Of a stretch of 64,000 bases of DNA, positions 12,373 through 60,732 are shown one piece after another. Positions within the stretch are counted from its first letter, which is position 1. The number at the start of each line of letters is the position of its first letter. A program made the position numbers and the translations under genes. The stretch covers positions 18,903 to 82,902 of IMG/VR virus record IMGVR_UViG_3300045116_000678. One strand, written 5' to 3'. Below the pieces are notes generated by a model. That model was not told the origin of the DNA and did no database searches. It saw only the letters and a program-made list of their open reading frames with translations. Origin of the DNA: a virus.

Positions 12373-13455
12373 TCAGAGTTGCCGGTTCAGGAAAGCCTCG
12401 ATCTGCGCGGGCGTCATGGATGCCATCCGCTCCGACATATCGGGGCCGCTCAATCCAGCGAGCTGCTCGTCCGCACTGAGCCCGGAGGGTCGGCCGCCCG
12501 GAAGGTCCGAGAGGCTGACCGGCACCGGCGTCGGTGCGGCTTGAGCCGCCGCCTTGGCCTGGGCCTTCACGTCGCCAGCGGGCGCCGTGTCGGCCTGGGC
12601 CGGAGCTCGTCCAGAGGACGCTTTGAAGGTGTCGAAGAGCTCGATGACCGCACCGGTGTCACCACCGGTCAGTACGTCGCGGTAGCCCGGCTGCGCGAAC
12701 TTGGGTTGCTTGGCAATCCAGTCCTGCAGCTCCTTGCTCTCGAAGATGGAATCGGCATCCGGGTGCGCCTTGTAGATCGCTTGGTAGTGCGCCTGGGTGT
12801 CGTTGGCGGCCTGCGACTGCTGGAAGGGCTTGAGCGCCTCCCCGACCTTCGCGTTCACCACCTCTGCCACCCGTGCCGCGACCTGCGCGTCCACCAGTTG
12901 CTGGATGCCTCTGGCCATCGCCTCCTCGGAGAAGTCCCCGAAAATCGCCGGGTCGACACCCTTGTCGATGGCCGCTTGCGCAGCCGCGACTTGGTTGTCC
13001 ACCGCGGTCGGCGCTTGTCCCGCGTCGACGCGCTGCTGGGCTTGGGCCCTGAGGCCTTCCAACTCCTTCAGCGCGGCGGCGTGGGCGCTTTCGGCCTGTT
13101 CGGCCTTCGCCTTCCATTGCTTCTCGCCGTCCCGCGCGGCCACCAGCTTCTCGTACGGGATGGTGTGGACACCATCCTTCGCCTGGATCACCGTCTTCGA
13201 CGGATCCTTCGGCTCGTCCAAGTCACCATCGGCGGCTGCCGCGGGCTTGCTCTCTTCCTTCGTCTGGTCCTTGACGCCGTCGGGGTTGGCTTCGCCTGCA
13301 GCAGGGGTCGCGTCGGGCTTCGCGTCCAGTTCCGGCTTGGTGCCGGTATCGCCCTGTTCGGCCAGTTCGAGGAGCTGGGCCGCCTGTTGCGGGGTGAGCG
13401 TGCCGTGCTCGGCGTGCTGCTGAATGAACTCGTCTTGTGCTGCTGTGATCGTCAT
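12373..13455 (-). CDS. capsid scaffolding-like protein
   Basis: 360 residues from the ATG at 13455 (MTITAAQDEFIQQH); the 19 extra codons upstream have no ribosome site. Highly charged, Ala/Gln/Lys-rich and helical, as scaffold proteins are. Residues 223-284 form a compact domain (HYQAIYKAHPDADS) that reappears in the membrane protein at 145-759. The C-terminus ends in a short amphipathic helix (MTPAQIEAFLNRQL) of the kind that binds capsid. It lies directly before the major capsid gene. Confidence 0.75.
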   Translation of the reverse strand: MTITAAQDEFIQQHAEHGTLTPQQAAQLLELAEQGDTGTKPELDAKPDATPAAGEANPDGVKDQTKEESKPAAAADGDLDEPKDPSKTVIQAKDGVHTIPYEKLVAARDGEKQWKAKAEQAESAHAAALKELEGLRAQAQQRVDAGQAPTAVDNQVAAAQAAIDKGVDPAIFGDFSEEAMARGIQQLVDAQVAARVAEVVNAKVGEALKPFQQSQAANDTQAHYQAIYKAHPDADSIFESKELQDWIAKQPKFAQPGYRDVLTGGDTGAVIELFDTFKASSGRAPAQADTAPAGDVKAQAKAAAQAAPTPVPVSLSDLPGGRPSGLSADEQLAGLSGPDMSERMASMTPAQIEAFLNRQL

Positions 13456-13797
13456 GCCTGTCCCGCCACATGTCGCCGTGGCCGCAAGGGGCAGCATTTG
13501 GGTGGCAGGCACGGGCCGAAGCCCGCGCCCACAGCCCTCCAGCTATGGGAACCTCCTCTCGGAGGCTTTGCCGCACCATCACGGTGGGGCGCTTCGCCTT
13601 CGGCTTTCGCGTCTGGCTTGGGCTGCACTTTGCCGGCACGCGGCGTGATCTGGAAACCCTACAGGGGGGCAGCTTTGACTGTGAGTCGCGCAAGCCATCA
13701 CGAACGCGCCAGCGGCCCGGCGGTTTAGCCTTTAGCACTTTCGCTTGACTCAGGAGACCAAAAAGAGGATTCTCACCGCGAGGACAAGGAGTAGAGT
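13456..13797. other. gap with hairpin, repeat copy C and moron promoter
   Basis: No supported gene. It contains a CGGGC-CGAA-GCCCG hairpin at 13512-13525 (UUCG loop on the minus strand) and repeat copy C. A TTGACT at 13745-13750 could be the -35 of the lipoprotein gene. An AAGGAGTAGAGT ribosome site precedes that gene's ATG at 13798. Base composition drops towards AT at the right end, where the moron begins. Confidence 0.5.
13653..13667 (-). repeat. CCCTNTAGGG repeat, copy C
   Basis: On the minus strand this reads CCCCTGTAGGGTTTC. It lies in the divergent gap between the scaffold gene (minus) and the lipoprotein moron (plus). Confidence 0.75.
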
Positions 13798-14904
13798 ATG
13801 AGAAGAACTTGGGTGCTTTTCTTACTGGCGTTTTCTAGCGTCTGGCTAGCCAGTTGCGGGTCGGACTATAAAAGGCCGCAACCTCCGCCCTTGGTCAAAT
13901 GCACTTCTGCAAAGGACTGCACTGACATACTTCCCATTGAGCAGAGTGTTTGCGGATGGAGCGCTGAATCCACGGTAGACACTGGCAAGTGGGGACGTGT
14001 TGGGGGGAGTCCGTCTTTGAACCAATGGCGACTCTACAACTTTGACGCACAGCGCGATGTTTCGGCGGTGGTCAAGGTTCACATCGAAACTCAATTGCCA
14101 GAAGCCCCCACCGAAAAATACATTCCGTATTTCCTCAAGGCGCGTCCCAAAGACGGCACTATCAAGGGGGGGCGTCCAGACTCAATCGACACAGCTGGAC
14201 CATACGCCTACCTCGGATGCGAGTGGGTTCGAAGAGTCGATAACACAATCATTCGGTACACGTACCAGGTAGTCAGCGCATGCTACGTGAACGACCCCAA
14301 CTGCCCGGCACAACCGCCCTATGAAAAGCCCGAGCAACGGCCTCCGGTTGAGGATGAGCTGGCTAGATGCGAGGTCGCATGCTCCAGCGGAGATCCGAGA
14401 AAATGCCTCGCCTACGATTTAAGCGCTCCTATCGCGTCAACACCAGCACGGCGGATGAATCAGATTGCCGTCCAGTTGCGTGACAACCCGATTCCATTCG
14501 GCGTAGACATGTCTCCGCTACTGGATGCAATTGACAACGCTACCGGGGCAAGCTGCAGAGGTCGGCAACTTACGATAGGTGAACAGGGGGAGGCGGTTGC
14601 GTTTGGGCAAGCCTGCAGGTTTCAGTTAGCCACTCCTGCAAAGACGCCCCCGGATCTTCAGCTCCTCATGCTGGACGTTCCAAACGTCGTGTCTGGTCAA
14701 TTCACGCGCGGAGCAACTGCGCCAGTGCTGCCCAAGATCCAGTGGAGCTCAGAGAATTCTCCGACCATTGACTACTATGCAAACGGATCCACTGGAGGCA
14801 AGACCGGCACCGAGTCGATAGCCGCAATCTACGTGGGAACATCAAGAATGCTGATCGCCGGAAAAGAGAAGTTCTGCGCCCGCGTCAACTACACCGGGGG
14901 CTGA
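13798..14904 (+). CDS. lipoprotein moron
   Basis: 368 residues with a lipoprotein signal peptide: Arg-rich start, hydrophobic core, lipobox LASC with Cys20. The mature part is Cys-containing and mixed alpha/beta, with no family I recognise. It is on the strand opposite the late genes, has its own ribosome site, and is clearly lower in GC than its neighbours. These are marks of a laterally acquired moron expressed in the lysogen. It overlaps the stop of the convergent gene by 20 bases. A role in surface change or superinfection exclusion is possible but unproven. Confidence 0.75.
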   Translation: MRRTWVLFLLAFSSVWLASCGSDYKRPQPPPLVKCTSAKDCTDILPIEQSVCGWSAESTVDTGKWGRVGGSPSLNQWRLYNFDAQRDVSAVVKVHIETQLPEAPTEKYIPYFLKARPKDGTIKGGRPDSIDTAGPYAYLGCEWVRRVDNTIIRYTYQVVSACYVNDPNCPAQPPYEKPEQRPPVEDELARCEVACSSGDPRKCLAYDLSAPIASTPARRMNQIAVQLRDNPIPFGVDMSPLLDAIDNATGASCRGRQLTIGEQGEAVAFGQACRFQLATPAKTPPDLQLLMLDVPNVVSGQFTRGATAPVLPKIQWSSENSPTIDYYANGSTGGKTGTESIAAIYVGTSRMLIAGKEKFCARVNYTGG

Positions 14905-15289
14905 CCCTAGCGCGGCCCGCGCGCTCGAGGATCTGCCTACACAGCAGCAACGCCGCGGCGGCGGGCCATGACGGGTTCGTGGGTGCGATGGGAAACGGGT
15001 TGTGCTCCCGGATGGACGCCTCGATGGCGATCGCCAGCCAGTACGGCATGGGCATCGGTTGCGGCGCGGGGCCCCGCATGGCCTCGGCAGGTCCGCCCAC
15101 CTCCAGCGGCTTGAAGACCTGCACGTCACCCCACCTGCCGAGTTCGCAGGCGATGAGCAGCGCGCCCTGCGGCGTGGCCGGCAACTTGTCCACCACCTCG
15201 CAGTAGTCGGGCAGAGCACCACCCTCGGATTCAAGGTGTGCGGCCAGCCAGGGCGGCACCATGATCTTGATCGGTTCGACTTCGTTCAT
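14885..15289 (-). CDS. small phage protein, unknown
   Basis: 134 residues from the ATG at 15289 (MNEVEPIKIMVPPWLAAH). An alternative ATG at 15322 adds 11 codons; neither has a good ribosome site. Trp/Pro-rich, no membrane segment, with a C-terminal Ala-rich helix. It lies among the morons between the portal and scaffold genes and faces the lipoprotein gene. Function unknown. Confidence 0.5.
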   Translation of the reverse strand: MNEVEPIKIMVPPWLAAHLESEGGALPDYCEVVDKLPATPQGALLIACELGRWGDVQVFKPLEVGGPAEAMRGPAPQPMPMPYWLAIAIEASIREHNPFPIAPTNPSWPAAAALLLCRQILERAGRARVSPRCS

Positions 15290-15304
15290 GCGCGCAAAGC
15301 ACCA

Positions 15305-15400
15305 AGCCCTGTGGTCTGACATCCCCGGTAGCGGCCGGTCCCCTTGCGGGGTGGGATGCCAGAGCACAGGGCTCTGTGGTTGATCGTCTTGGCCGCTACC
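15305..15400. promoter_or_regulatory. crossing inverted repeats, possible pseudoknot
   Basis: AGCCCTGT (15305-15312) pairs with ACAGGGCT (15366-15373). GGTAGCGGCC (15327-15336) pairs with GGCCGCTACC (15391-15400). The two pairings interleave, the geometry of a pseudoknot, and a CCCC-TTGC-GGGG hairpin (15340-15351) lies inside. This is upstream of the minus-strand small gene and 73 bases before the plus-strand moron. Confidence 0.5.
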
Positions 15401-15439
15401 CGTCGATAGGCCAATGGTCTTCCGGGGCGGCTGTGAAAC

Positions 15440-15454
15440 CGAACCCTACAGGGG
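15440..15454 (-). repeat. CCCTNTAGGG repeat, copy D
   Basis: On the minus strand this reads CCCCTGTAGGGTTCG. It lies 18 bases upstream of the plus-strand moron start at 15473, in the gap shared with the minus-strand small gene. Confidence 0.8.
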
Positions 15455-15472
15455 TGCTGTCAGAATCCTCCG

Positions 15473-16285
15473 ATGCCCAAGAGAAACGCGAAGTTCTCCG
15501 TTCTACAGCCCGACCGCCTAAAGGAACTGGTGGAGGCAAATCAACGAGCGTTGAACAATCTCGCGGACGCACTTGAGAGGTTTTCTCCGGAACAACTGCC
15601 TTTCCTTGAGCCGGTGCGAGCCTCAGCAAATAGGGTTGCTCAGACGGCGCGTGAAGTCTCCGAGGCGTGGGATCAACTACCCAATGAGTACCGAGCCGCC
15701 TTGCTTGTTCTCGCGCACGAAGGGTGGTATTTCGACCTGGAAGCGATGGAGTTCGGAACGCCTCTTGAAATCGCAAACAGCTTTCAGTCCGGCGATAGAG
15801 AGACAGCCGAGACTCATCTTTGTGACCACTATCGCGATCGTCTAAATGAGATCGAACAGCAACTGACGAAGTGGTTTCCCTCGCGTTTGGCCATATTCAG
15901 AGATGCGTTTCGCGCCCATCGGCAGGGGCTCTATTTCGCGTCAATCCCTCTGTTGCTGTCGCAGATCGACGGCGTGTGCCATGACCTCTCAGACTATTAC
16001 TTCTTCACGAAGCCACGCGGTGAAAGACGGACTGGCGTGTCGCCATTCATCGAGCAGAAAGGTCTAAGCGAAATCAACTTGGCGTTGCTTGCGCCGTTGA
16101 TGGCTGAGCACAGCATCCTCCTAGGTGAAAACCGACGCCCAGCAAATTTCTCCCAGTTGAATAGACATCAGGTATTGCATGGGGAGTCGCTGGACTATGG
16201 AAGCGAGCTCAACAGCTTGCGCTCCATCTCGCTCCTTCACTATCTGGCGTCCTGCTTGCACTACTTCGTCCTTCGCAAGAATTAG
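15473..16285 (+). CDS. HEPN-like moron, possible defence protein
   Basis: 270 residues, helical, no signal peptide. Near the C-terminus it has NRHQVLHGESLDYG followed by NSLRSISLL. Arg231-x4-His236 fits the R-x(4-6)-H active-site motif of HEPN ribonucleases. The 'RHxVLHG...YG...NSL' arrangement is one I associate with abortive-infection-like proteins. It is on the plus strand inside the late block, lower in GC, and begins 18 bases after a repeat copy. A superinfection-exclusion or toxin role is an inference. It could also be a non-catalytic HEPN-fold protein. Confidence 0.6.
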   Translation: MPKRNAKFSVLQPDRLKELVEANQRALNNLADALERFSPEQLPFLEPVRASANRVAQTAREVSEAWDQLPNEYRAALLVLAHEGWYFDLEAMEFGTPLEIANSFQSGDRETAETHLCDHYRDRLNEIEQQLTKWFPSRLAIFRDAFRAHRQGLYFASIPLLLSQIDGVCHDLSDYYFFTKPRGERRTGVSPFIEQKGLSEINLALLAPLMAEHSILLGENRRPANFSQLNRHQVLHGESLDYGSELNSLRSISLLHYLASCLHYFVLRKN

Positions 16286-16300
16286 GCTTGCACGTTCCGA

Positions 16301-18619
16301 TCAGGCGGCTTCCAGGTTGTCCGAGGTCCGCGCCGTCTCGATGCCCTGCCCTCCGTCGCCTGGCTCAGCTGCGCGCGGTGGGAATGTCGGACTGGTGTTC
16401 TCGCGCACGGGCGGCGCCGCAGCTGCCTCTTCCTGGGCGCCGGGCGCCGGCAGCATGGCCGGGCCCTGGCCCTGGATGTAGGGCGACTTGATGTTCATCG
16501 CCGCGGTCTGGGCAGGCACCGGGAAGTTCGGATCGTCGCCGCCGGGGTTGGGCCGCTGGTAGCCGGCGCCCTGCATGATGGCGTCGGCGATCGGCGCGAT
16601 CATGGGCATCTGGGCAACCTGAGCGCCGCCCTGCATCGCGGCGAAGGCCGCCTGCACGCCCACCTGCACCGCATCGGCCATCAGCTTGCGGATCTCGGCG
16701 TCGGTCTTCCGCTCCTTCATGTCGAGCTCGCGGGCCTTCAGGTCGTTGCCGGCCTTCACGAGTGCCTGCTGCACGGCTTCCTGGATGCGTCGCTCCACCT
16801 GCTCCGGCGTCTCTTGCGACCCGGCTGCCCGGATGGCCTCCACAACCTCGCGCTTGAACGGCACGTCCATGAGGCTGACCATGAACGGCATGACGGCGGC
16901 CTGGTACTGCTGCGGCAGGGACTTGACCGCCTCCGACATCGCGTTGAGCTGCTGGCCGCGGTAGCTGTTGGTGCTGGGCACGTCCTCGAGGGCCACCTTC
17001 AGGCGCGTGCGCTGGAGGTCGTTCGACAGGTAGGTCTGCCCGGTGACAGGATCCTGCTCGGGGCGGTTGATGACAACGGTGCGATCCTTGCGCACCGCGT
17101 CGCCCTCGATCACGACCACGGTCTGCTGGCTGCCGAGGTCTTCGACGATCATCGAGAGGAGCATTTCGCCAACCAGCGTACGGCCGGCGCGGAAGTTGTC
17201 CATGATGCGGCCGAGCGACTGGTTCGATTGCTCGACCTGGGTCTGCTCCTGGAGTCCAGATCGCGCGGTGCCCTTCTGCCCCATGAAGCCGGCCGTGACC
17301 GTGCTGACGCGCTGGATCGCGCCGCGGCTGTCCTCCAGCATCTTGTAGTGCTGCTCGGTCAGGGTGTAGTCGCGCTTCACTTCGAACCGCGCGCCTGGCT
17401 GCGCCATGTGCTGGGCATTGAGCACGACGTCGGCGTCGACGCGCGCGACCATGCGGCGGAACTGTGCGTCGGTCATATCCACCGCGCCCTTGGTGCGCTC
17501 GGTGCGCACTGCGGCCATACCCCAGCGCAGCTTGGCGATGCCGCTGTTCAGGCTGTCCTGCGGGAAGATCATGTCCCGCACGTAGCCGTACGGCACACGG
17601 GTCTCGTCCTCAGCGAAGCCGAAGAATGGGGCGTAGGGGAAGAAGCGATGGGTGTATGGGCTCGGCCCGTCGTGCAGGCAGTGAGGGCCAAGCCAGTAGC
17701 TGCGCCGCACGCGAGCCACAATCGCCCTTTGAGCCCGCACCAGCCCGCGCGCCAGGCTGATGTTGTGGGCAGGGTTGTCCTCGTCGTACTCCACGACACG
17801 GCCGTCCGGGGCGAAGAGGACGACGGCGTCCACCCAGCGGCGGTACCACAGCTCCGCCAGGCAGATCTCTCGGCTGGTCGGGTTGTACCAGCGGTCCTCG
17901 CTGATCGTCCATGCACGTGCCTGATCCCAAGCGTTGCGCAGCCCGGTCGATGCGCCGCCATCGAGAAAGCCTTGGGAGTAGAGGCTCCACCAGCCGCTGC
18001 CGTCCTTGCCCACTACGTCGATGAGTTCCGCATGCTCGGGGAATGAGCGCTTGAGGCGATCCGGCTGGAGCCACCGGGCCCGGCGGAGCCAGCGCCATTC
18101 CTCGGGGTCATCCGACTTCATGTCCCAGTGGATCTCGTTGCGGTGCACGGCGCGGCACCGATACGGATACTTGAACGGGTCGCTCTGCCGCGACACCTCC
18201 ACCCAGCCGATGCCCACGCCGATCTGGGGGCGGAAGGCGTCGCTGCAGGCGCGATCGGCCTTGGATTCGCGCTCGGCCTGGTTCAGCTTGTAGTTCAGCG
18301 CGTCAGCGACCTCTTGGCCGCCGGGCTCTCCGTTCGGGGTGACGCGCCAGTCGGTGCGGATCGTGGCCTCGTAGCCCTGGATGCTGAGCAGCGCCGGGCC
18401 CACCAGGTTCTCGACTGCCGGCGGGATGCCCAGCTGCTGCTGGCGGCGCAGCAGCTCGCTGTCCAGCTGGTTGCCGTCGGCGTAGTCCATCTCCTTGTCG
18501 GCGGTACCGCGCCACGGCGGCTGCATCTCGACCTCGTGCATGAACTCGGTGTATTCCGTCAGCGTCAGCGCCAACGGATCGGCGCCGGGCGCCGCAGGAG
18601 GGGTGGTGTGTTGCAGCAT
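16301..18619 (-). CDS. portal protein
   Basis: 772 residues from the ATG at 18619, with GAGGA 6 bases upstream; the frame opens 7 codons earlier without one. The length fits P22-type portals. An N-terminal segment has FMHEVEMQPPWRGTADKEMDYADG, followed by repeated Trp/Arg-rich strands. A long helical C-terminal part (about 590-690) would form the barrel, and the tail is disordered and Pro/Ala-rich. It lies right after the large terminase, as expected for the DNA-entry vertex. Confidence 0.85.
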   Translation of the reverse strand: MLQHTTPPAAPGADPLALTLTEYTEFMHEVEMQPPWRGTADKEMDYADGNQLDSELLRRQQQLGIPPAVENLVGPALLSIQGYEATIRTDWRVTPNGEPGGQEVADALNYKLNQAERESKADRACSDAFRPQIGVGIGWVEVSRQSDPFKYPYRCRAVHRNEIHWDMKSDDPEEWRWLRRARWLQPDRLKRSFPEHAELIDVVGKDGSGWWSLYSQGFLDGGASTGLRNAWDQARAWTISEDRWYNPTSREICLAELWYRRWVDAVVLFAPDGRVVEYDEDNPAHNISLARGLVRAQRAIVARVRRSYWLGPHCLHDGPSPYTHRFFPYAPFFGFAEDETRVPYGYVRDMIFPQDSLNSGIAKLRWGMAAVRTERTKGAVDMTDAQFRRMVARVDADVVLNAQHMAQPGARFEVKRDYTLTEQHYKMLEDSRGAIQRVSTVTAGFMGQKGTARSGLQEQTQVEQSNQSLGRIMDNFRAGRTLVGEMLLSMIVEDLGSQQTVVVIEGDAVRKDRTVVINRPEQDPVTGQTYLSNDLQRTRLKVALEDVPSTNSYRGQQLNAMSEAVKSLPQQYQAAVMPFMVSLMDVPFKREVVEAIRAAGSQETPEQVERRIQEAVQQALVKAGNDLKARELDMKERKTDAEIRKLMADAVQVGVQAAFAAMQGGAQVAQMPMIAPIADAIMQGAGYQRPNPGGDDPNFPVPAQTAAMNIKSPYIQGQGPAMLPAPGAQEEAAAAPPVRENTSPTFPPRAAEPGDGGQGIETARTSDNLEAA

Positions 18620-43629: not shown

Positions 43630-43898
43630 GCGGCCTGTTCCTCACCGATGAAGAGGTCGACGACATGTGCGCCGGCCTGAGCACCAACGCTGTGAAGGTG
43701 CGCCGCCTGCGCGCCCTTGGCCTGGTGGTCAACGTGAAACCCAACGGGCGGCCCCTGATCGTGCGTTCGCACGCCGAGGCTGTCATGAGCGGCCGGCCCA
43801 AGATGGAAGCCGCCGCCCAGCCGCAGGAGGCCGAGCCGGCACCGGCCGCCAACACCGCCGGCATCGTGGCCCTCTTTGGCCGCAGGAAGGCTGCCTAA
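43626..43898 (+). CDS. DUF4224-like protein before the integrase
   Basis: 90 residues, GTG start at 43626. LFLTDEEVDDMCAGLSTNAVKV and RALGLVVNVKPNGRPLIVR match DUF4224, a short protein usually encoded right before phage integrases. An excisionase or integrase-regulating role is inferred from that recurring place. Confidence 0.7.
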   Translation: MSGLFLTDEEVDDMCAGLSTNAVKVRRLRALGLVVNVKPNGRPLIVRSHAEAVMSGRPKMEAAAQPQEAEPAPAANTAGIVALFGRRKAA

Positions 43899-43899
43899 G

Positions 43900-45015
43900 A
43901 TGTGCTCCATGGGGCGACGCCGAAAGTTCGATGACGGACTCGAGCCGCGGGTCTACCTGAACCACGGCGCCTACTACTACGTCCACCAGAACGGCAAGTG
44001 GGAGCGGCTGGGCACCGACAAGGACGAGGCCAACCGCAAGGCCCGGATCCACAACGACCCGGGCAGCCTGTACGGCACGATGGTCTACTGGCTCGACCAG
44101 TTCCTGCTGCACTGCGAGGAGCGCGTGCGGCGCAAGACCATGAGCCAGCGCACGCTGGACGATTACCGGGACGCCATCCTGCCGCCGACCGAGACGCGGG
44201 CCAGGGGCGCCCTGCGGGTCTACTTCCCGCCGCCGCTGGCGCCGCAGCAGGTCACCCCCGCCATGGTGCAGAACTTCCTGGCCACCATGGCCGAGCTGGG
44301 CCGCCCCACCCCTGCCAACCGCGAGCGCGCCTGCCTTTCCGCGTGCTTCGGCTGGCTGCTGCGCACGGGCAAAGTGCCAGGGCTGGCCAGCAATCCGTGC
44401 CTGCGCTCGGCGGGCGTGCAGCGCAACGCCGAGAAGCGGCGCGCGCGCTACGTCACGCACGACGAGTTCCGCGAGGTATACGCCGTCGCCGGCGCCAGCG
44501 AGCGCCTGATGATGGAGCTGACGTACCGCACTCTGCAGCGCCCGGAAAGCGACATCGTTCTGTGGACATCGGCCAACCTGGTGATGGAGGCTGGCCGGCG
44601 CGTGCTGGTGCACGTCCAGAACAAGACCGGCACCGAGATCCGCATCGCCCTGCCCGACAGCGTCAACGCGCTGCTGGACCGCGCCCTGGGCACCGAGGCC
44701 AACGTCGTGCGGCTGCGGCAGCCGCTGGTGCAGCGCCTGGACGGCGAGAACTACACGTACGACGGCCTCAGCTCGATGCTGCGCCGGTCGATCGCCGTGG
44801 CCAACGAGCGGCGCCTGGCGCGCAAGCTCCCGCCCATGGCGTCCTTCGGCTTCCGCGACCTGAAGGGCAAGGGGGCCACCGACATGTGGCTGGCGGGCGT
44901 GCCGATCGAGCGCATCCAGCTGCTCTGCGGCCACAAGTCGAAGACCACCACCGAGGTCTACATCAAGCAGCGCTGGCGCGAGACGGCCCAGCCCAACATG
45001 GTCGAAGTCGGGTAG
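43900..45015 (+). CDS. int: tyrosine integrase
   Basis: 371 residues from the ATG at 43900, 10 bases after AGGAAGG; ATG 43909 is an alternative. An N-terminal arm-binding part precedes a core-binding SAM-like domain. The catalytic domain has the first Arg region (TYRTLQRPESD), FRDLKGKG with Arg319, LLCGHKS with His345, and Tyr354 in EVYIK. The usual His of the HxxR motif is Phe316 here, a variation seen in this family. It ends 145 bases from the tRNA-Asn fragment it presumably targets. Confidence 0.9.
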   Translation: MCSMGRRRKFDDGLEPRVYLNHGAYYYVHQNGKWERLGTDKDEANRKARIHNDPGSLYGTMVYWLDQFLLHCEERVRRKTMSQRTLDDYRDAILPPTETRARGALRVYFPPPLAPQQVTPAMVQNFLATMAELGRPTPANRERACLSACFGWLLRTGKVPGLASNPCLRSAGVQRNAEKRRARYVTHDEFREVYAVAGASERLMMELTYRTLQRPESDIVLWTSANLVMEAGRRVLVHVQNKTGTEIRIALPDSVNALLDRALGTEANVVRLRQPLVQRLDGENYTYDGLSSMLRRSIAVANERRLARKLPPMASFGFRDLKGKGATDMWLAGVPIERIQLLCGHKSKTTTEVYIKQRWRETAQPNMVEVG

Positions 45016-45107: not shown

Positions 45108-45159
45108 TGACCGGCCCGATCTCCAGCATCCATGCGGGCTGCGGGCCCGAAACAACCGG

Positions 45160-45207
45160 GGACTGTTAATCCGTAGGTCCCTGGTTCGAGCCCAGGTCGG
45201 GGAGCCA
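45160..45207 (+). other. attR: 3' fragment of tRNA-Asn
   Basis: 48 bases match the 3' part of tRNA-Asn(GTT): anticodon arm ACTGTTAATCC, T arm GGTTCGAGCCC, acceptor 3' strand and encoded CCA. No matching 5' half precedes; upstream is phage sequence. This is the duplicated core left by integration into tRNA-Asn. The intact gene should be at the other prophage end, left of the window. Confidence 0.85.
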
Positions 45208-46385: not shown

Positions 46386-46395
46386 GCCATCGAAC

Positions 46396-46418
46396 AGCCC
46401 GCCCCGCGCGGGCTTTTT
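46396..46418 (+). terminator. terminator after the toxin-like gene
   Basis: AGCCCGC and GCGGGCT flank a CCCGC loop, followed by TTTTT, 11 bases after the stop. Confidence 0.85.
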
Positions 46419-46507
46419 CTCGCCCGCAGCCAACTATTTCACGCGCGCTATGGAGGAATCTGACGGAAACTGAGCGTCCTCCCTGGCCGACCTCCAAGCG
46501 GCCTTCG

Positions 46508-46533
46508 GCCCACCCTAATCGGTGGGCTTTTTC
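46508..46533 (+). terminator. second rho-independent terminator
   Basis: GCCCACC and GGTGGGC flank CTAATC, then TTTTTTC. It stands 85 bases before the convergent ParB-like gene's stop. Confidence 0.8.
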
Positions 46534-46618
46534 TTGCATGGTGAGGGTTACCGGTTGCTGTCGGCTGTCTCCGCCGTCGTAGCCCCGCAGCGGGGCAACT
46601 GTCGATCCCGCACACCTG

Positions 46619-47497
46619 CTACGCATCAATCGATGTCAGCTCCACCAGCTTGGCAAACTCTTCCAAGATTTCGGGGTAGTGCCTCTGCATGTAATGCATC
46701 ACACGTTCGTTATCGATCATCTTCACGACATACCCCCTCGCCAACATCAGGTTCAACATGTCTTCCCCGTGAGACTGCTCGGCTATCTTGTACTGCGCGA
46801 GCAAATTAGACATCTCGGTTTCCATGCGCAGTAGCTGCTCCTGAGATAGGGCGCGACGACCTAACGGCCGCTTTCCGGCGACCAAAAGCTCTGGCGAAGT
46901 CGCCGCGAGCAGTGCCCTGGCATATGAGGCACTGACGCTGTTTGCGGACACCATCAATTCCGCGCATTCAATCTGTCGGGTGGGCTTCATTCTTCGCAGC
47001 GCGACCGGGACTTCGGGAGAGAAGTTGACGTCCTTCAGTATGGCTACGACCTCGTCGCAAATTCCGTCAAGCAGGGTACTTTTCTTCTGCAGCAGCGAAA
47101 CGTCGATCGATAGACCCTTGGCAAGTTTGGCCGGAGGAATGCCGCGATCTACCGCGCGACGGATCATCAGATGCTCTTGAATCGTCGACAAACGGCTAAT
47201 GCGGTTGTTGTACGTGAAAGTTTCGTCGTCAGTGGCGATGAGGCATGGCACCTCGAGAATTGAAAGCTCCTTAATGACCTCCAATCGCAAGTGACCATCC
47301 AGAACAAGGTGATGCCCAGTTTTCTTATCCACACCAGACACCGATAGAGGTTCGATCAGTCCGATCTCTTGGATTGACTCGCGAATCTGTCGATACTTGG
47401 GAATCAGCTTGTTCTTCGGATCGAGCTTTACCGATGGGAGTAGCGCGCTCACCGCAATCATGATTGGCTTGGGAAGAAAGGCCAACAGGGTGCTCAT
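46619..47497 (-). CDS. ParB-like protein 2 (RepB C-terminal type)
   Basis: 292 residues. ParB/Spo0J N-terminal core: SIQEIGLIEPLSV, HHLVLDGHLRLEVIKEL, followed by a helical DNA-binding middle and a C-terminal helical domain. It overlaps ParB-like protein 1 by 4 bases. With the recombinase it forms a three-gene set found on mobile elements. In this setting such proteins may act on recombination-site recognition instead of plasmid partition. Confidence 0.75.
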   Translation of the reverse strand: MSTLLAFLPKPIMIAVSALLPSVKLDPKNKLIPKYRQIRESIQEIGLIEPLSVSGVDKKTGHHLVLDGHLRLEVIKELSILEVPCLIATDDETFTYNNRISRLSTIQEHLMIRRAVDRGIPPAKLAKGLSIDVSLLQKKSTLLDGICDEVVAILKDVNFSPEVPVALRRMKPTRQIECAELMVSANSVSASYARALLAATSPELLVAGKRPLGRRALSQEQLLRMETEMSNLLAQYKIAEQSHGEDMLNLMLARGYVVKMIDNERVMHYMQRHYPEILEEFAKLVELTSIDA

Positions 47498-48396
47498 ATC
47501 GGGCCTCCCATACGGACCACTCGCTCGGCGAGGTAAGCAGGGAGCGTGTCTAGTCCTTCCAGCCGCAAGACGTTTACCAAGTTCTCATCGGTGAACATCT
47601 TGCGCAACGCGCCGAGAATGAAGAACAGGCGCTGCTGGGCCAGTGATGATTTCCGGACCATCATGCGCTGTCTCTCAACTTCCTTTTTGTAGGCGCGGAC
47701 TAGACTTGAACTACTGACATCCGCTCGGCGACGTGGCGGTGCTCTTGCAATGCTCCTGCCCAGGAATTGGCGCCGCTCAATCAATTTCTTGGCGTACATC
47801 AACTGTGGCCCGCGCAGTTGCCCCGATTCATACGAGTCTTGCATCGCCAACTGCACAGCCTTGTCGTCGTCACCTGCCCCGACGATCAGCAGTGCGACAG
47901 TAATTGGGATCTGCCCCCGGCCTACTGCAACGAGCAGCCGTTCTTCCCCCTTGTCTGCAAGCTCCAAGATTTGGCGGACATAGCCTTCGTGCATGTCGAT
48001 CTTCTGGGCGATCTCCCGTGGAGAACAGCCCTTGTCGCGAAGAAGCACGATGCCGTTCAAAAGCTCCATGGGTTTGTGTCGGCGCCGAGCGATGTTCTCC
48101 GCCAAGCTCATCACGAAAGCATCCTCGTCGGAGACTGTCACCACAAGCGCCGGTATGCTGGACTCTCCCAATCTCTGGAATGCCTTCATGCGGCCCTCGC
48201 CGCAGATCAAGACGTAGCGTTCTGCGCCATCCGGGCCGGGCCCAGGCGTCACGGTGACGGGCTTCTTCAGCCCCACCACACCAATATTCTTCACGATGAC
48301 GTCGAACTTCTGTTGATCCCGCTCACGAGGGTTCAGAACTTCGATTCGATTCAGCGGAATCATCCGCAGTTCAGGCAGAGAGAGGTTGGCGGTCAT
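47494..48396 (-). CDS. ParB-like protein 1
   Basis: 300 residues. MIPLNRIEVLNPRERD, GLKKPVTVTPG and LICGEGRMKAFQRLG are ParB box motifs. The middle has an HTH (SPREIAQKIDMHEGYVRQIL) and the C-terminus is basic and helical. The start overlaps the recombinase stop by ATGA, so all three genes are one operon. Confidence 0.8.
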   Translation of the reverse strand: MTANLSLPELRMIPLNRIEVLNPRERDQQKFDVIVKNIGVVGLKKPVTVTPGPGPDGAERYVLICGEGRMKAFQRLGESSIPALVVTVSDEDAFVMSLAENIARRRHKPMELLNGIVLLRDKGCSPREIAQKIDMHEGYVRQILELADKGEERLLVAVGRGQIPITVALLIVGAGDDDKAVQLAMQDSYESGQLRGPQLMYAKKLIERRQFLGRSIARAPPRRRADVSSSSLVRAYKKEVERQRMMVRKSSLAQQRLFFILGALRKMFTDENLVNVLRLEGLDTLPAYLAERVVRMGGPI

Positions 48397-49955
48397 GCAG
48401 CCCTCTTGAGTCGCGTGCGCGCTGCCATCTTGTAGAAGTAATCCAAGCTGTCGAAGCGGTAGCTTTCAAGCTCGATCGGATTCCGCTCGCCTAGCCTGAT
48501 GCGCGGACAATTGATGTCCAGCCTCGGTAGTAAGTAGTAGTCGAACGCAGACCGGTTGTCCTGGTTCAAACGTATGGCAACTGTGAGGTCAGGATTCAGC
48601 CCGGTGTCGAATCTGATCTTCCAGAAAAGGCTTCCGCTCTCGACCTTGTGGCACCGCGCCAGCACAACAGAGACATCAAACTCGTCGTTCACCCGCAGCA
48701 TGTCGGTGTCGGTATCTCGCTTCACTTTCCCCCCGATGGCCTCGATCCGCGATTCCGCGTCGCTCACAACAGCAGGGTGCAACTGCCGAAGAATGCGATT
48801 GATCTCGATGTACTGAAAGTCTCGAGCAGGCGTATATCCAACCAAGTGATACGCGCGAATGAGGCTGCCAAAGCGAGACGCATAAACCGAGGATGAGGGC
48901 ATTCCTTCGGTTGAGTTGATGATCAAACCTGACAGGGCCTGGCGCTCTTCGTAGAGCACGCGAAGCCGTGTGATCAGTTCTTCATCGGTCAGCCGCCGGG
49001 AGCGCGCCCGAATGATTCCCTGTGCCGTGTAGAAGACCTCTTTTGCGACGATCGGGGCAAAGGCGTCTTCACGGCGGATCCACATATCGGACGGATTGAC
49101 TACACGCAGCTTGCGAAGCTTGAACGAAACGCGGTTGTAGACATTGCTTCCGATGTACTTTTCGTTGATCAGCACCCCATGAACCGTCGCCCTCGACCAG
49201 GATCGCCCAAGATCAGTAAGGATCTGCATCGAGTTGAGTCTGCCGGCTATTTGATTCTCCTGCAGTCCGTCCCTGACAAACCACGCATAGATCTGGCGAA
49301 CCGTTTCAACCTCGTTGTCTGGGCCAGGGACCAAGATCACCCGGTCGGTCTGAAGGCTCTTTTGCTCACCTCGATCGAGCAGGCCCTTTTGCTGGCCGAG
49401 TTGATCGATCAGCAACCGTCGAAGTCCGAATCCCGCAGGGCCACCCTGGCGAAAGCCCTCCTCGACGAGCCTGCACTGGCCAGCAAACACCTTTGCGGAC
49501 AGTTCACGGCTGTATTCGCCGGCCATCGCACGTTTGACGCCTTTGACGATGGTCGAGACCGGCGAGCCATCGTTCTCGAACTGCTCAGCGCAATAGATGA
49601 CCTGAATGCCCGCCCGTTTGCAGATGTACTCGTAGTACGCACTTTCGTCAGCATCTTGAAAGCGACCCCAGCGACTCACGTCATAGACGAGGATCATCGA
49701 ATAGCCCGGTCGTCCTGACTCGACGTCCTGAATGAGTTGTTGCAGTGCAAGCCTTCCCGCGATGCGAAGGCCGCTCTTCCCCTCATCCGCATATGTCTTC
49801 ACGACTTCTATGCCGCGCTGCCTGGCGTACTCCCGGATTCGGTCCGTCTGGTTCTGCGTGGAGTACTGCTGATGTTCGGTCGACATCCGCACATACTCCG
49901 CGGCGCACACTCCTGAGGAGTGGCTTTGCGGGATGTCGGCGCGCAATGCTTCCAT
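48393..49955 (-). CDS. large serine recombinase
   Basis: 520 residues from the ATG at 49955, 8 bases after GAGGGG. Resolvase domain: AAEYVRMSTEHQQYSTQNQ with Ser25, then VYDVSRWGRFQDADE. It is followed by the Recombinase domain (AGEYSRELSAKVFAGQCR, GGPAGFGLRR) and a long C-terminal region without the usual Cys zinc ribbon. The operon partners are two ParB-like genes. It probably moves the cassette itself. Lower GC than phage region 1. Confidence 0.88.
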   Translation of the reverse strand: MEALRADIPQSHSSGVCAAEYVRMSTEHQQYSTQNQTDRIREYARQRGIEVVKTYADEGKSGLRIAGRLALQQLIQDVESGRPGYSMILVYDVSRWGRFQDADESAYYEYICKRAGIQVIYCAEQFENDGSPVSTIVKGVKRAMAGEYSRELSAKVFAGQCRLVEEGFRQGGPAGFGLRRLLIDQLGQQKGLLDRGEQKSLQTDRVILVPGPDNEVETVRQIYAWFVRDGLQENQIAGRLNSMQILTDLGRSWSRATVHGVLINEKYIGSNVYNRVSFKLRKLRVVNPSDMWIRREDAFAPIVAKEVFYTAQGIIRARSRRLTDEELITRLRVLYEERQALSGLIINSTEGMPSSSVYASRFGSLIRAYHLVGYTPARDFQYIEINRILRQLHPAVVSDAESRIEAIGGKVKRDTDTDMLRVNDEFDVSVVLARCHKVESGSLFWKIRFDTGLNPDLTVAIRLNQDNRSAFDYYLLPRLDINCPRIRLGERNPIELESYRFDSLDYFYKMAARTRLKRAA

Positions 49956-50085
49956 CGGGTAACCCCTCGAGCACAACTGGCTGGTTCAGAAAATCTGTGC
50001 GCCAAGCAAGAGGGCGCAGCGCAGGCGGCACGCTCGCACAGTAACAGGACTCTGCAGGAAACTCGATCAAGTCTTCTCTTTGCAA

Positions 50086-50520
50086 TCAGTCCGCAATGGC
50101 TGCGATCGGGATGAGTTGGACGAGCCAACTCTGCGCGGCGGTGGCCTCACCACCCCACAGCCGTGCCAAACAAAAAAGCCCGTGGGGTGGCGGCCAAGCT
50201 GAAGACACGTCAACCTTTGCAATCGAATTGAAATCGTCAGTGCGACGACGGTTTCGCTCCCGCTGCTGCTCGCGATTTGAGGCGACGTATTCAGGGTGCT
50301 CGCCGCGATACTTCCTCCAGTACTCTCTATTTTTCTCTCGCCAGACCGACTGAGCTTCGAGCTGTTCCTGGTGGTAGTCAGGATCTGTTCTGCGTTTGGT
50401 TCGTTGCCACAAAAGCTTTCTTGCCTTCTGGCAGGCAATGTCTGAACAGTACGCCTGTCTGGGTGCCCGAGGGTTGGGGTCGTATGGCCTGCCACAGGCG
50501 CTGCACCACCGCTTTTCCAT
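50086..50520 (-). CDS. zinc-finger protein of the recombinase cassette
   Basis: 144 residues. Cys6, Cys9, Cys25 and Cys30 (CSACGRP ... YCSDIAC) suggest one zinc site. A strongly charged helical part follows (VWREKNREYWRKYRGEHPEY, NREQQRERNRRR), suited to DNA or RNA binding. I recall this protein type next to ParB/recombinase sets. Its place upstream in the same direction supports membership. Confidence 0.65.
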   Translation of the reverse strand: MEKRWCSACGRPYDPNPRAPRQAYCSDIACQKARKLLWQRTKRRTDPDYHQEQLEAQSVWREKNREYWRKYRGEHPEYVASNREQQRERNRRRTDDFNSIAKVDVSSAWPPPHGLFCLARLWGGEATAAQSWLVQLIPIAAIAD

Positions 50521-50763
50521 GGCTGCTCCTTGCGCCCTTCAGGGCCAACACAAGAGAGAGCCCAAATTGTCGAAGCTGCCGCGCCGGGCTCTGGGGCGCC
50601 AGCAGCTGATGGAAAACCGCCTCACCGCGGCTTGGGCTGATCTAGGACTTGGAGCGCCCGGTCGGCCCACGGACCTACTGTCCTCGCTCGACTTGAAAGG
50701 GGCGCGGACTCCTAGTTGTCCGCAGTGAGAACAATCCCACCAGGAATTGCGAACGGGATGTGG

Positions 50764-51498
50764 CTAGAAGAGGCCGACGGCTTCAAGTTGCGCAGCTGGT
50801 GGACCCGCAGGCGCCGCGTCGAACACCTCGTGCGGCGTGAGCTTGATGAGCGCCCTCGCCTCCTCGACCGTGCCTTGCAGCCACCGGTCTACTTCGCCTC
50901 GTTCAAGCAGCACTAAGCTGCGCTTGTCCTGTTTGTCGGGGCCGAGACGCGGATCAGGTTTGTGCATGCGCTTCATCAGCGGGTGCGCGTCGGCGTTGAC
51001 GGTCACCATGGAATAGCTGGGCACCACCTCGCCCGTCGCTGGGTCAGTCCACTCGCTCCATAGGCCCGCCACGCTCCACGGCTGACCATCAGCGCGGAGG
51101 AACCGCCACCAGACATTCGCGCCAGTTTCCCAGTTTGGCTCGAAGAAAAGCCGGGCAGGAACTATGCAGCGTTGGCCCTTCTTCCATGCCTCGCGGTAAG
51201 TCGGCCGGCTGGCGATCGTCTCCTGACGAGCGTTCACGGTGCTGATTCGCTTGGGCTTCTCGCCCGGGCCGCGTGGCCGGCTCATCGGGATGCGAGTCTC
51301 GCTGTCCGGAGGAATCATCCCCCACTGAGCCAGTTGCGCCCTGCGCTCGCCCTCGCCATCCAGGCGCACGATCGGCCCGGTCGAGAGCGGGAACAGTTCG
51401 CGCGCCCTGAAGAGGCCCGACGGCATGCGCTTGCCGGCGCCGATCTGCCAGAAGTCCTCCAACTCGCGCATCTCTGGTGGGATGTAGCGGGTGCACAT
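50764..51498 (-). CDS. SRAP/YedK-family DNA-protein crosslink sensor
   Basis: 244 residues. Met1-Cys2-Thr-Arg gives the catalytic Cys2. STVNARQET (Asn89, Arg91), Glu120 (LFFEPNW) and His179 (KRMHK) match the SRAP active site that crosslinks to abasic sites. The start has no Shine-Dalgarno, but MCTRY fixes it. A dyad ATCAGC-N7-GCTGAT (51499-51517) lies right before it. Confidence 0.9.
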   Translation of the reverse strand: MCTRYIPPEMRELEDFWQIGAGKRMPSGLFRARELFPLSTGPIVRLDGEGERRAQLAQWGMIPPDSETRIPMSRPRGPGEKPKRISTVNARQETIASRPTYREAWKKGQRCIVPARLFFEPNWETGANVWWRFLRADGQPWSVAGLWSEWTDPATGEVVPSYSMVTVNADAHPLMKRMHKPDPRLGPDKQDKRSLVLLERGEVDRWLQGTVEEARALIKLTPHEVFDAAPAGPPAAQLEAVGLF

Positions 51499-51517
51499 AT
51501 CAGCAGCATACGCTGAT
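51499..51517. promoter_or_regulatory. dyad before the SRAP gene
   Basis: ATCAGC and GCTGAT, 7 bases apart, directly upstream of the SRAP start. Possible operator or start-site hairpin. Confidence 0.4.
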
Positions 51518-51631
51518 CAGTCCGAGCATCTCAGAGCTGGTCATATAATGCCTTAGTTCTCATTGTTGAGCACTATTCCTACGTCGCGCCGATTTCTCTG
51601 CTGGACTCTCACCGGTCAGAGGAGTCTCTGA

Positions 51632-51829
51632 ATGAAACCCGACCATCCACTTGGCGAAGAATTTTCCGACTGGGCCGAGCTAACCGATCAGTATCGCGCT
51701 CGGCTGGAGCAGGCGTCGCCTCAGAAGATTCCACACCGGAGCCAGTTGGCCCGCATGGTGAAGCGTTTGCGGGCCCTTGCGACCGCAGCCACCGAGGCGG
51801 TCGCGCGACAGACTCCACCACCCCGCTGA
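51632..51829 (+). CDS. small helical protein
   Basis: 65 residues with AGAGGAGTCTC before the ATG (MKPDHPLGEEFSDWAELTD). Charged and soluble. It follows a clear ~130-base upstream gap that could carry a promoter. Function unknown. Confidence 0.6.
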   Translation: MKPDHPLGEEFSDWAELTDQYRARLEQASPQKIPHRSQLARMVKRLRALATAATEAVARQTPPPR

Positions 51830-51929
51830 CCGCTCAGGGCTGAAGGCGCGCTAGAAACTCGGCCCAGAGAGCGTCGAAGAGCATGCCAAGAAGGCTGGCA
51901 TTGGTCCAGCGTTGCAGAAAACGCCCAAG

Positions 51930-52085
51930 TTATCGCGCTGACGGCTCAGAGAGGGTTTGGATTGTCGATTCGATCGCGTTGCGCATGGCTGCGTGCCCGG
52001 GCGGCTCCCTCAGCCACACCAAGACCAGCCACAACACGCCGACAGCAAGCACGACGCAGCTCGCGAGCGCGTAGATCAACAGCAT
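51930..52085 (-). CDS. very small membrane protein
   Basis: 51 residues from the ATG at 52085 (MLLIYALASCVVLAVGV), with GAGGGG 6 bases upstream; a second ATG at 52091 is an alternative. One long hydrophobic segment, then a charged tail (REPPGHAAMRNAIEST). Too short for usual gene filters. Confidence 0.6.
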   Translation of the reverse strand: MLLIYALASCVVLAVGVLWLVLVWLREPPGHAAMRNAIESTIQTLSEPSAR

Positions 52086-52133
52086 TTCCATCCCCTCGAA
52101 GAGTTGAGCCAGGAAACGATTGGCTCGCGTGAT

Positions 52134-52352
52134 TTATGAAGACCGGCTCGACCCGGCTGTACCAGGCTGTACGTTCCGGATTGTCCCGCCGGGCTCCAGC
52201 CAAGCAAGCGCCGCCTCGTCAGGGGTGAGACCAAGCAGATCCGGATTGTTCGCGATCTCGCGCGCCACTTCGTCCAGTTCGGCCGGATCAATGGTCCTCC
52301 AGCGCCGTTGTAGGCGATGTGCGCAGAGAGCGATCCAGATTTCGCGATCCAT
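52134..52352 (-). CDS. small LexA-adjacent protein
   Basis: 72 residues (MDREIWIALCAHRLQRRW). Helical with Trp/Arg-rich patches; WLEPGGTIRNVQPG near the end. The start is 8 bases from the LexA-type box, shared with the divergent gene. Function unknown; perhaps damage-inducible. Confidence 0.5.
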   Translation of the reverse strand: MDREIWIALCAHRLQRRWRTIDPAELDEVAREIANNPDLLGLTPDEAALAWLEPGGTIRNVQPGTAGSSRSS

Positions 52353-52359
52353 GGTGATA

Positions 52360-52375
52360 CTGTATGAAAATACAG
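52360..52375. promoter_or_regulatory. LexA (SOS) box
   Basis: CTGT-ATGAAAAT-ACAG fits CTGT-N8-ACAG exactly, with an AT-rich spacer. It lies between divergent starts at 52352 (minus) and 52378 (plus). LexA would silence both until DNA damage. Confidence 0.75.
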
Positions 52376-52377
52376 GT

Positions 52378-52770
52378 GTGTTCGCAATCGTTTATCGCTG
52401 TCGATTCCATGGTGCGCGGCTCGATGCCGACGCCATCCGCGCCAACCCCCTACAGGGAGACCTCATCGTGCACCGCCGGGGAATGGGCCGAATCGCCAAG
52501 TTGGTGGCCGCAGACGGGGAAACCTACCTGACCCCGCTCATGGACAAAGTTCGCCTGCTCGACCTGAACGAGCGCGGGCTCCTGATTGCCGGGCGGGAGA
52601 GGTATCCGGGCAGAAGCGACAAGCGAGATGGGCCGACCTATCCACAGGCTTGGTGGTGCATCCCGGCTCCACGGCCAGTGCTGAGGCCCGATACGCGCCC
52701 ACAGCAGCTCAGGGAAGCAGCCGAGATAGGCCGCACGATGGTCAACCACTACTCGCGACGCAGAGGCTGA
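52378..52770 (+). CDS. LexA-controlled protein, unknown
   Basis: 130 residues from GTG 52378, directly after the box; an ATG at 52351 would place the box inside the gene. FRFHGARLDADAIRANPLQGDLIVHRRG-type pattern (read in parts) and LTPLMDKVRLLDLNERG, then WWCIPAPRP. I recall relatives near SOS genes but no function. Confidence 0.55.
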   Translation: MFAIVYRCRFHGARLDADAIRANPLQGDLIVHRRGMGRIAKLVAADGETYLTPLMDKVRLLDLNERGLLIAGRERYPGRSDKRDGPTYPQAWWCIPAPRPVLRPDTRPQQLREAAEIGRTMVNHYSRRRG

Positions 52771-59625: not shown

Positions 59626-60732
59626 TCAGAAGAAGAAGCTGGCGCCAGCACCGGCAGCGGCACTGCTGGCGGCGGACGAACCATAGGCGTACAGGGCAGA
59701 AGCAGCCAGGCCAGCAGCAGCCTGGGTATTGGCAGCCTCCTGGGCGTTCTGTGCATTCACTTGTCCAAGCTGCGAGTTGTATTGGCCCTGGGTGGCTCCC
59801 AGGAGGTCTGGCCCGCTGGTCTGCCCTTGCTGGCCTGGCGTGTTGAACGTGGGGTTTGTGACCTGGGACCCGTTTCTCAGGGCGCTCAGCTCTTGAAGAG
59901 GCAGGTTGCGTAGATACGCGCGCTGCTGAAGCGTTGCGGCGTTCCCAGCAAGGGCTTGCTGGAACATCTGGTTTTGCAGCTGCGAGCCAGCCAGCTCTGC
60001 GGCAATGTCGGCGTCGTTGCGTTGCTTGCCGAACTGGCTTTGCTGCGTGGCCCAGCCTTCGGAACCCACTGTCAGGCCCATGTTTGCAAGTTTGGTGTCG
60101 AGGGCGGCCTGCTGCTGGTCGAGACTTTCTCGATTGCGCTGTTTGATCAGGTTCGCGGCACGGTCCCAGCCATCCATGCCGGTCATGCTGTTGATGTCGA
60201 TAAGCCCTGACGTATCAAACGGCTGTGCCATGGAGTCGCGTACCCGATCCATGGCACTTCCCTGCAGGTCGGCCATCCCCAGGCTGGTGCGGTTGTACGC
60301 ATCGAGGAGTTGCCGCCCGGTGTCGGACAACTGGATCTCAGACGACCACTTGTCCGGGTTGATCATGTAGTCGTTACGATCAGGCGCCTTCAGTATCGCC
60401 CCGGTCGCTTCCATGTACTTGCGTACCTGTGGATTGAGCTGGAGCCCGCGCTCCTGATCCTGATAGCGTTTCAGCGCTGCGTCATACCCGGCTTGGTCGA
60501 ATCCATCGCCCTGGTGGTAGACCAACGAACCATAAGGGGTGACTTGGTCGATGCGGTTGGCCTGAGTTTGCGCGCGGGCGGCATTGAGGTTGCCGGCAGC
60601 TTGGGCGTTCGCTTGGCCGACGTAGTCAGGTGCGGCGGGCGCTTCGGACTTGCCACCGTACAGGCGCATGCGGCCGGCCGAAGGCTGAAAGGCCCGAGGA
60701 TCGTGCTCGGGGATGTCGAGGAGGTGCTTCAT
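59626..60732 (-). CDS. probable virion/ejection-associated protein
   Basis: 368 residues. VGQANAQAAGNLNAARAQTQANRIDQVTPYGSLVY and repeated GTN/Gln-rich segments (read in parts) look like internal virion or DNA-ejection proteins of T7-like podoviruses. The C-terminus is Ala/Ser-rich (ALYAYGSSAASSAAAGAGAS). Overlaps the AlpA-like stop by ATGA. Confidence 0.6.
   Translation of the reverse strand: MKHLLDIPEHDPRAFQPSAGRMRLYGGKSEAPAAPDYVGQANAQAAGNLNAARAQTQANRIDQVTPYGSLVYHQGDGFDQAGYDAALKRYQDQERGLQLNPQVRKYMEATGAILKAPDRNDYMINPDKWSSEIQLSDTGRQLLDAYNRTSLGMADLQGSAMDRVRDSMAQPFDTSGLIDINSMTGMDGWDRAANLIKQRNRESLDQQQAALDTKLANMGLTVGSEGWATQQSQFGKQRNDADIAAELAGSQLQNQMFQQALAGNAATLQQRAYLRNLPLQELSALRNGSQVTNPTFNTPGQQGQTSGPDLLGATQGQYNSQLGQVNAQNAQEAANTQAAAGLAASALYAYGSSAASSAAAGAGASFFF

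Follow-up and report, generated by a model that had tools for sequence, protein, structure and literature searches.

A large serine recombinase and two ParB-like proteins form a conserved, apparently undescribed and probably mobile gene trio

Several described systems share part of their organization with the gene trio reported here. RIT elements are conserved overlapping trios that move as small units, and all three of their genes encode tyrosine recombinases. Large serine integrases (phiC31, Bxb1, SPbeta YokA) join a catalytic domain to a PF07508 recombinase domain, the Ccr recombinases of SCC cassettes belong to the same large serine recombinase (LSR) class and accrete defence and other cargo, pdif/Xer modules and integron cassettes are toxin or defence cassettes bounded by short directly oriented sites, and ParB, RepB, Noc and KorB are CTP-clamp proteins with a ParB_N fold. 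The stretch that we analysed (the window) comprises 64,000 nucleotides, positions 18,903 to 82,902 of the IMG/VR virus record IMGVR_UViG_3300045116_000678, and is thus part of a longer contig. On its minus strand lie, from upstream, genes for a Cys-rich protein, an LSR and two ParB-type proteins (ParB1 and ParB2; Table 1), all four of which had been reported in a sequence-only reading of the window. The ATGA-style overlaps described there were also found, at 4 bp each for LSR/ParB1 and ParB1/ParB2; the Cys-rich gene stands apart from them, with a 110 bp gap upstream of the LSR gene. The overlapping trio is built like that of RIT elements but from one serine recombinase and two ParBs. A literature search found no paper describing the trio, or a serine recombinase paired with partition-type clamp proteins, and the element is apparently a widespread, undescribed new variant of serine-recombinase mobile element.

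Judged by gene order, LSR-ParB1-ParB2 is a conserved unit. Similar sets, which the sequence-only reading mentioned for other genomes, occurred in dozens of plasmids, in 76 contigs from viral databases and in genome contigs, where at least 584 stretches matched; the order was nearly always kept in loci reaching far enough. ParB-like genes unlinked to a recombinase, the finding that would have spoken against the reading, were almost never seen: when LSR and ParB2 were searched in the same 301 related genomes, 32 of 33 ParB2 matches (E<1e-30) lay ~1.8 kb from an LSR match. The trio is common on chromosomes, is also carried by plasmids, and often sits in islands and at prophage ends. A phage origin was ruled out, as ParB2 was found in only one of 50,697 sequenced phage records, a 7.5-kb faecal fragment.

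Comparing 145 modules (the trio with its upstream accessory gene) pair by pair indicates that the unit also moves. At one end, homology starts close to the beginning of the accessory gene, either shortly ahead of it or shortly inside it; at the other, it is lost no more than a few tens of bases from the ParB2 stop, and the flanks on both sides are unrelated. The pair L116/L122, for example, is 93.6% identical over 3,903 bp, L136/L147, L134/L142, L088/L091 and L085/window break in the same two-sided way, and breakpoints just outside the module recur at 85-97% identity. Since near-identical copies lie between unrelated flanks, with sharp ends, the module appears to move as a ~4-kb unit, sometimes with cargo. 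Some module groups run 0.2-1.5 kb beyond ParB2, and the window's closest copy (G024; LSR 99% identical) has only the 6.4-kb block at 46396-52770 in common with the window, the flanks being different. Module copies were also seen in tandem or as neighbours within one locus (L137, L129, L122/L150), as if accreting at a hotspot. Identical Methylibium copies were discarded as mobility evidence because they lie inside a much larger identical chromosome/plasmid stretch, and a left-end hairpin (TCCATA..TATGGA) was discarded as a general module end because it occurs at only 5 loci. We consider it somewhat better than an even prospect that the trio and its small DNA-binding-type partner are a self-contained mobile recombination module: by sequence comparison the trio stays together, its near-identical copies have unrelated neighbours on either side and, in Agrobacterium, it directly abuts dispersed sites of site-specific recombination.

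These sites were recognized in the modules of pAtC58 and pAt1D1460 (L200/L201), which are 96.9% identical over 3,904 bp with nothing in common beside them. In both plasmids a 28-bp site stands at both module ends with base-exact boundaries; its consensus, SSY-CTTGA-nn-GGA-n-TCGAACC-nn-CGrCC, resembles an antisense tRNA T-arm. The 80-kb Aminobacter plasmid pANY103d has a single site, at the left end of its module. Because the module is flush with sites at both ends in two contexts and adjoins the sole Aminobacter site, we infer that the trio LSR acts at the Agrobacterium sites. With one mismatch allowed, pAtC58 contains 15 sites, all on one strand (controls near zero), and the density of sites on these plasmids greatly exceeds that in 249 Pseudomonadota genomes, where only 21 exact matches were counted. 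At places where plasmids do not carry the trio, the same site bounds AbiEii, a VapBC cassette and two different Fic genes, with exact breaks. The VapBC cassette (889 bp, two direct sites) was found at three places with 99.2-99.5% identity, twice in one plasmid (W04 at 57.5 kb and 84.3 kb; W03 at 227.6 kb; L266-L268), and at NC_003064 292743-298411 (L286) pAtC58 sites flank genes for a GSU2403-type nucleotidyltransferase and a PIN-domain protein, again toxin-like cargo. Site orientation is strongly strand-biased on plasmids W01-W15, and on pAt1D1460 it switches between two arcs, as if following the direction of replication. Directly oriented sites around toxin or defence cassettes are common to these plasmids and to pdif/Xer modules, but the pAt site is unrelated to dif, shows conservation only to one side of the crossover and lacks dif-like XerC/XerD arms.

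Exact site-to-site deletions were found in two laboratory derivatives of C58. The pAt of GV2260 (NZ_CP067029), which retains the trio and several sites, is shorter by 83,846 bp, the distance between pAtC58 (NC_003064) sites 327474-411320, and that of GV3101::pMP90 (NZ_CP067039) by 175,596 bp, the distance between sites 235724-411320; given 105 pairwise site distances, we calculate the chance of each base-exact length match as about 2e-4. Each junction carries one hybrid site, with the crossover inside GCTCT at one and GCTCTTGA at the other, where the conserved stretch has its left border, and all three sites belong to the GCT core class, CGC being another. Large serine integrases recombine attB with attP at a 2-bp core in a unidirectional reaction; the Agrobacterium crossover is mapped to 5 bp, and no attachment site was found for the window's branch. 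According to a review (PMC4231840), Morton et al. 2013 found that repeats of 9-13 bp, outside known transposable elements, flank large pAtC58 deletions, and short repeats at large deletions, enriched on pAt, are common to both data sets. No recombinase is named in the review; the present comparison adds a candidate enzyme, the exact junctions and a site of 28 bp: from its position at the sites, the trio LSR is a recombinase candidate for the pAtC58 deletions.

Several results weigh against a self-contained module. For six site-bearing Agrobacterium plasmids, no match to the LSR was obtained on the plasmid itself; the enzyme at work there may therefore be the host's, with the trio possibly a passenger. 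The site was not found on trio plasmids of Sphingobium, Pseudomonas, Roseomonas, Methylibium or Variovorax, and, being absent from these and from the window, was rejected as a universal attachment site. Terminal direct repeats were not detected in the beta-proteobacterial branch, to which the window's copy belongs (the longest shared word averaged 5.94, compared with 5.96 for controls), and neither enriched boundary k-mers nor a shared attachment motif of any generality emerged in the window's branch. The empty sites expected in relatives also failed to appear: a joined-flank site for G024 was absent among 81 relatives, and no clean empty site was recovered. With neither a terminal repeat nor an empty site, a true attB for the window's branch is not supported.

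The passenger explanation would have a separate, host- or plasmid-encoded site-specific recombinase work the T-arm-like sites and move the trio in the same way as VapBC, Fic and AbiE, as chromosomal XerCD moves pdif modules. We regard this as unlikely, though it deserves serious weight, since sites occur on plasmids without the trio and cassettes without a recombinase move at them. Xer sites have an 11+6+11 layout of arms, however, and the conserved part of the pAt site (SSYCTTGAnnGGAnTCGAACC) is one-sided; moreover, trio modules of other clades move without T-arm-like sites, which argues that the module has its own mobility. Less probable still is that the trio is simply a conserved operon of fast-changing islands and plasmids, its sharp edges left by the usual shuffling of genes at hotspots and at the ends of prophages rather than by recombination of its own. 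The frequency of the trio in just such places, the missing beta-branch repeats and the larger block common to the window and G024 would fit this origin, but not the repeated two-sided breakpoints at high identity, the base-exact site boundaries in Agrobacterium, the tandem copies and the intact catalytic domain.

The recombinase itself departs from described serine integrases. It matches PF00239 (resolvase-type catalytic domain, E=5.8e-24) and PF07508 (E=2.4e-20), and the residues around S32 of the catalytic YxRMS motif are invariant in an alignment of 51 relatives, by which the enzyme appears catalytically intact. In profile, Pfam and Foldseek searches, serine-integrase likeness was limited to the first ~325 residues, with about 315 aligned by Foldseek to SPbeta integrase. 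No Pfam match was obtained past residue 324, no CxxC occurs anywhere in the protein, and the C-terminus was unmatched in Foldseek; AlphaFold predicts the last ~200 residues, with fair confidence, as helices and a beta-rich part. Because the C-terminal zinc ribbon and coiled coil of large serine recombinases were not found, we class the LSR as a variant and not as a canonical serine integrase, from which it also differs in its fixed ParB partners. Its CcrB match is weak (56.7 bits for the CcrA/B/C equivalog, against a cut-off of 900), and the trio differs from SCC/Ccr in its ParB partners and its sites.

Both partners resemble partition proteins. ParB1 matches ParB_N (5.9e-10) and RepB (5.5e-13) in Pfam and Spo0J/Noc/ParB/KorB structures by profile, and keeps the GEGR and ENxARR motifs of the CTP-clamp proteins, so that it can be classed as a putative ParB-type DNA-binding CTPase. 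ParB2 matches RepB (3.8e-36), and its model has a ParB-like fold (Foldseek to Noc/ParB/KorB) with altered or degenerate motifs. These proteins are set apart from the known clamps by the degenerate ParB2 motifs, by their operon with a recombinase and by the lack of ParA: in the plasmid records examined no ParA is annotated as an immediate neighbour of the trio, and none was seen among the window's open reading frames around it. That the trio is a partition, stability or incompatibility module of plasmids and islands in which the recombinase resolves multimers is very improbable: ParB/RepB domains, ParB-like folds and iteron-like arrays would suit it, but the missing ParA, the many chromosomal copies and an integrase-type LSR in place of a small resolvase do not.

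The third partner varies between branches. The CxxC...C(x4)C pattern of the Cys-rich protein is conserved in 34 aligned relatives, although no Pfam match was found, and its gene precedes the trio in 96 of 163 loci, nearly all of them beta-branch genome loci. Alpha-branch modules and a Pseudomonas megaplasmid instead have, at this position, a divergently transcribed protein of an unrelated family whose sequence suggests a helix-turn-helix regulator. In one beta sub-branch, 9-bp tandem repeats, ATTTCGCTN, which resemble iterons, form two clusters at the far end of the module. One or two clusters, about 50 bp apart and about 1.35-1.5 kb past ParB2, were seen in L005, L007, L010, L064, L131, L139, L145, L146, L149, L157, L158, L162 and L240. 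The pattern fits DNA-clamp loading, and the ATTTCGCTN arrays are possible ParB loading sites; no such parS-like arrays were seen at the window copy. Between ParB2 and the repeats, L139 encodes a 454-aa protein without a Pfam match (13290-14654), and a large ATPase-like open reading frame follows (14820-18305).

If the trio is a self-contained module, the LSR would carry out strand exchange, the ParBs would load onto repeats close to the end of the element, acting as CTP-dependent clamps, and, together with the zinc-finger protein (beta) or the divergent helix-turn-helix protein (alpha), they may supply site recognition, synapsis or direction control, functions that in ordinary large serine integrases reside in the C-terminus of the enzyme itself. 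The sequence-only reading suggested that the ParBs form the recombination complex or choose it, a role that is plausible. The module may also move or delete DNA between its sites, including toxin and defence cassettes. A more far-reaching proposal, which we put forward only tentatively, is that LSR, ParB1 and ParB2 constitute a new class of recombination machine, with ParB clamps replacing the DNA-recognition part of the integrase, and that in Rhizobiaceae it runs a cassette system at dispersed one-sided T-arm-like sites that exchanges or deletes toxin and defence cassettes and large plasmid segments.

Table 1. Features at and around the trio in the window (n/a, not applicable; L085 and G024 are other copies of the module)
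Feature	Coordinates	Strand	Evidence
LSR, large serine recombinase, 527 aa, unusual C-terminus without zinc ribbon	48393-49976	-	Pfam, PHROG integrase, S32-region alignment, AlphaFold/Foldseek, no CxxC motif
ParB1, ParB_N and RepB-like, CTP-clamp motifs GEGR and ENxARR	47494-48396	-	Pfam, PDB profile match Spo0J/Noc/ParB, invariant columns
ParB2, RepB-family ParB-like protein	46619-47497	-	Pfam PF07506, Foldseek to Noc/ParB/KorB
Cys-rich protein, 144 aa, CxxC...C(x4)C	50086-50520	-	Alignment of 34 relatives
Upstream edge of conserved unit	50521-50590	n/a	L085 homology stops here; imperfect dyad (by eye)
Downstream edge	46396-46618		L085 homology stops at ParB2 stop; G024 homology runs on to terminator hairpin 46393-46417
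SRAP gene, passenger	50764-51498	-	Also in G024's copy; without trio in four relatives
Open reading frame, outer edge of 6.4-kb block common to window and G024	52120-52770	+	

The observation of the gene set in the sequence-only reading is right and its guess reasonable, but parts of the setting were drawn differently. The att-type junction is a tRNA-Asn (45129-45207) beside a tyrosine integrase (43876-45015) and belongs to the neighbouring prophage, which fills the left part of the window and ends at that tRNA, with the trio beyond it; the tRNA was accordingly ruled out as the trio's attachment site. The lower GC is real, at 0.56-0.57 compared with 0.65-0.70 for the left part, but it covers about 45-62 kb and so extends beyond the unit, and the neighbouring 'SOS genes' amount to the single SRAP gene. 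In the four related genomes that have SRAP without the trio, homology stops at or just before the SRAP 3' end. In Xenophilus E41, SRAP lies near a phage-like end with a 49-bp piece of tRNA-Asn (window 45208-45160, L275 3279-3327), the same tRNA that adjoins the window's prophage integrase. Past the tRNA, at 45.2-64 kb, the window encodes an acyltransferase, a PHROG virion-structural match (59629-60732), an AAA_25 ATPase and a Toprim protein, and this part is possibly a second prophage or a satellite. PADLOC gave no convincing match to a known type of defence system.

The coupling of a serine recombinase to partition-type clamps across hundreds of proteobacterial genomes raises the question of whether ParB clamps can be put to use in recombination rather than in segregation. 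The trio also bears on which enzyme drives the large pAt deletions known from stocks of Agrobacterium C58, GV3101 and GV2260 among them, and it could explain the spread of toxin-antitoxin and defence cassettes among Rhizobiaceae plasmids.

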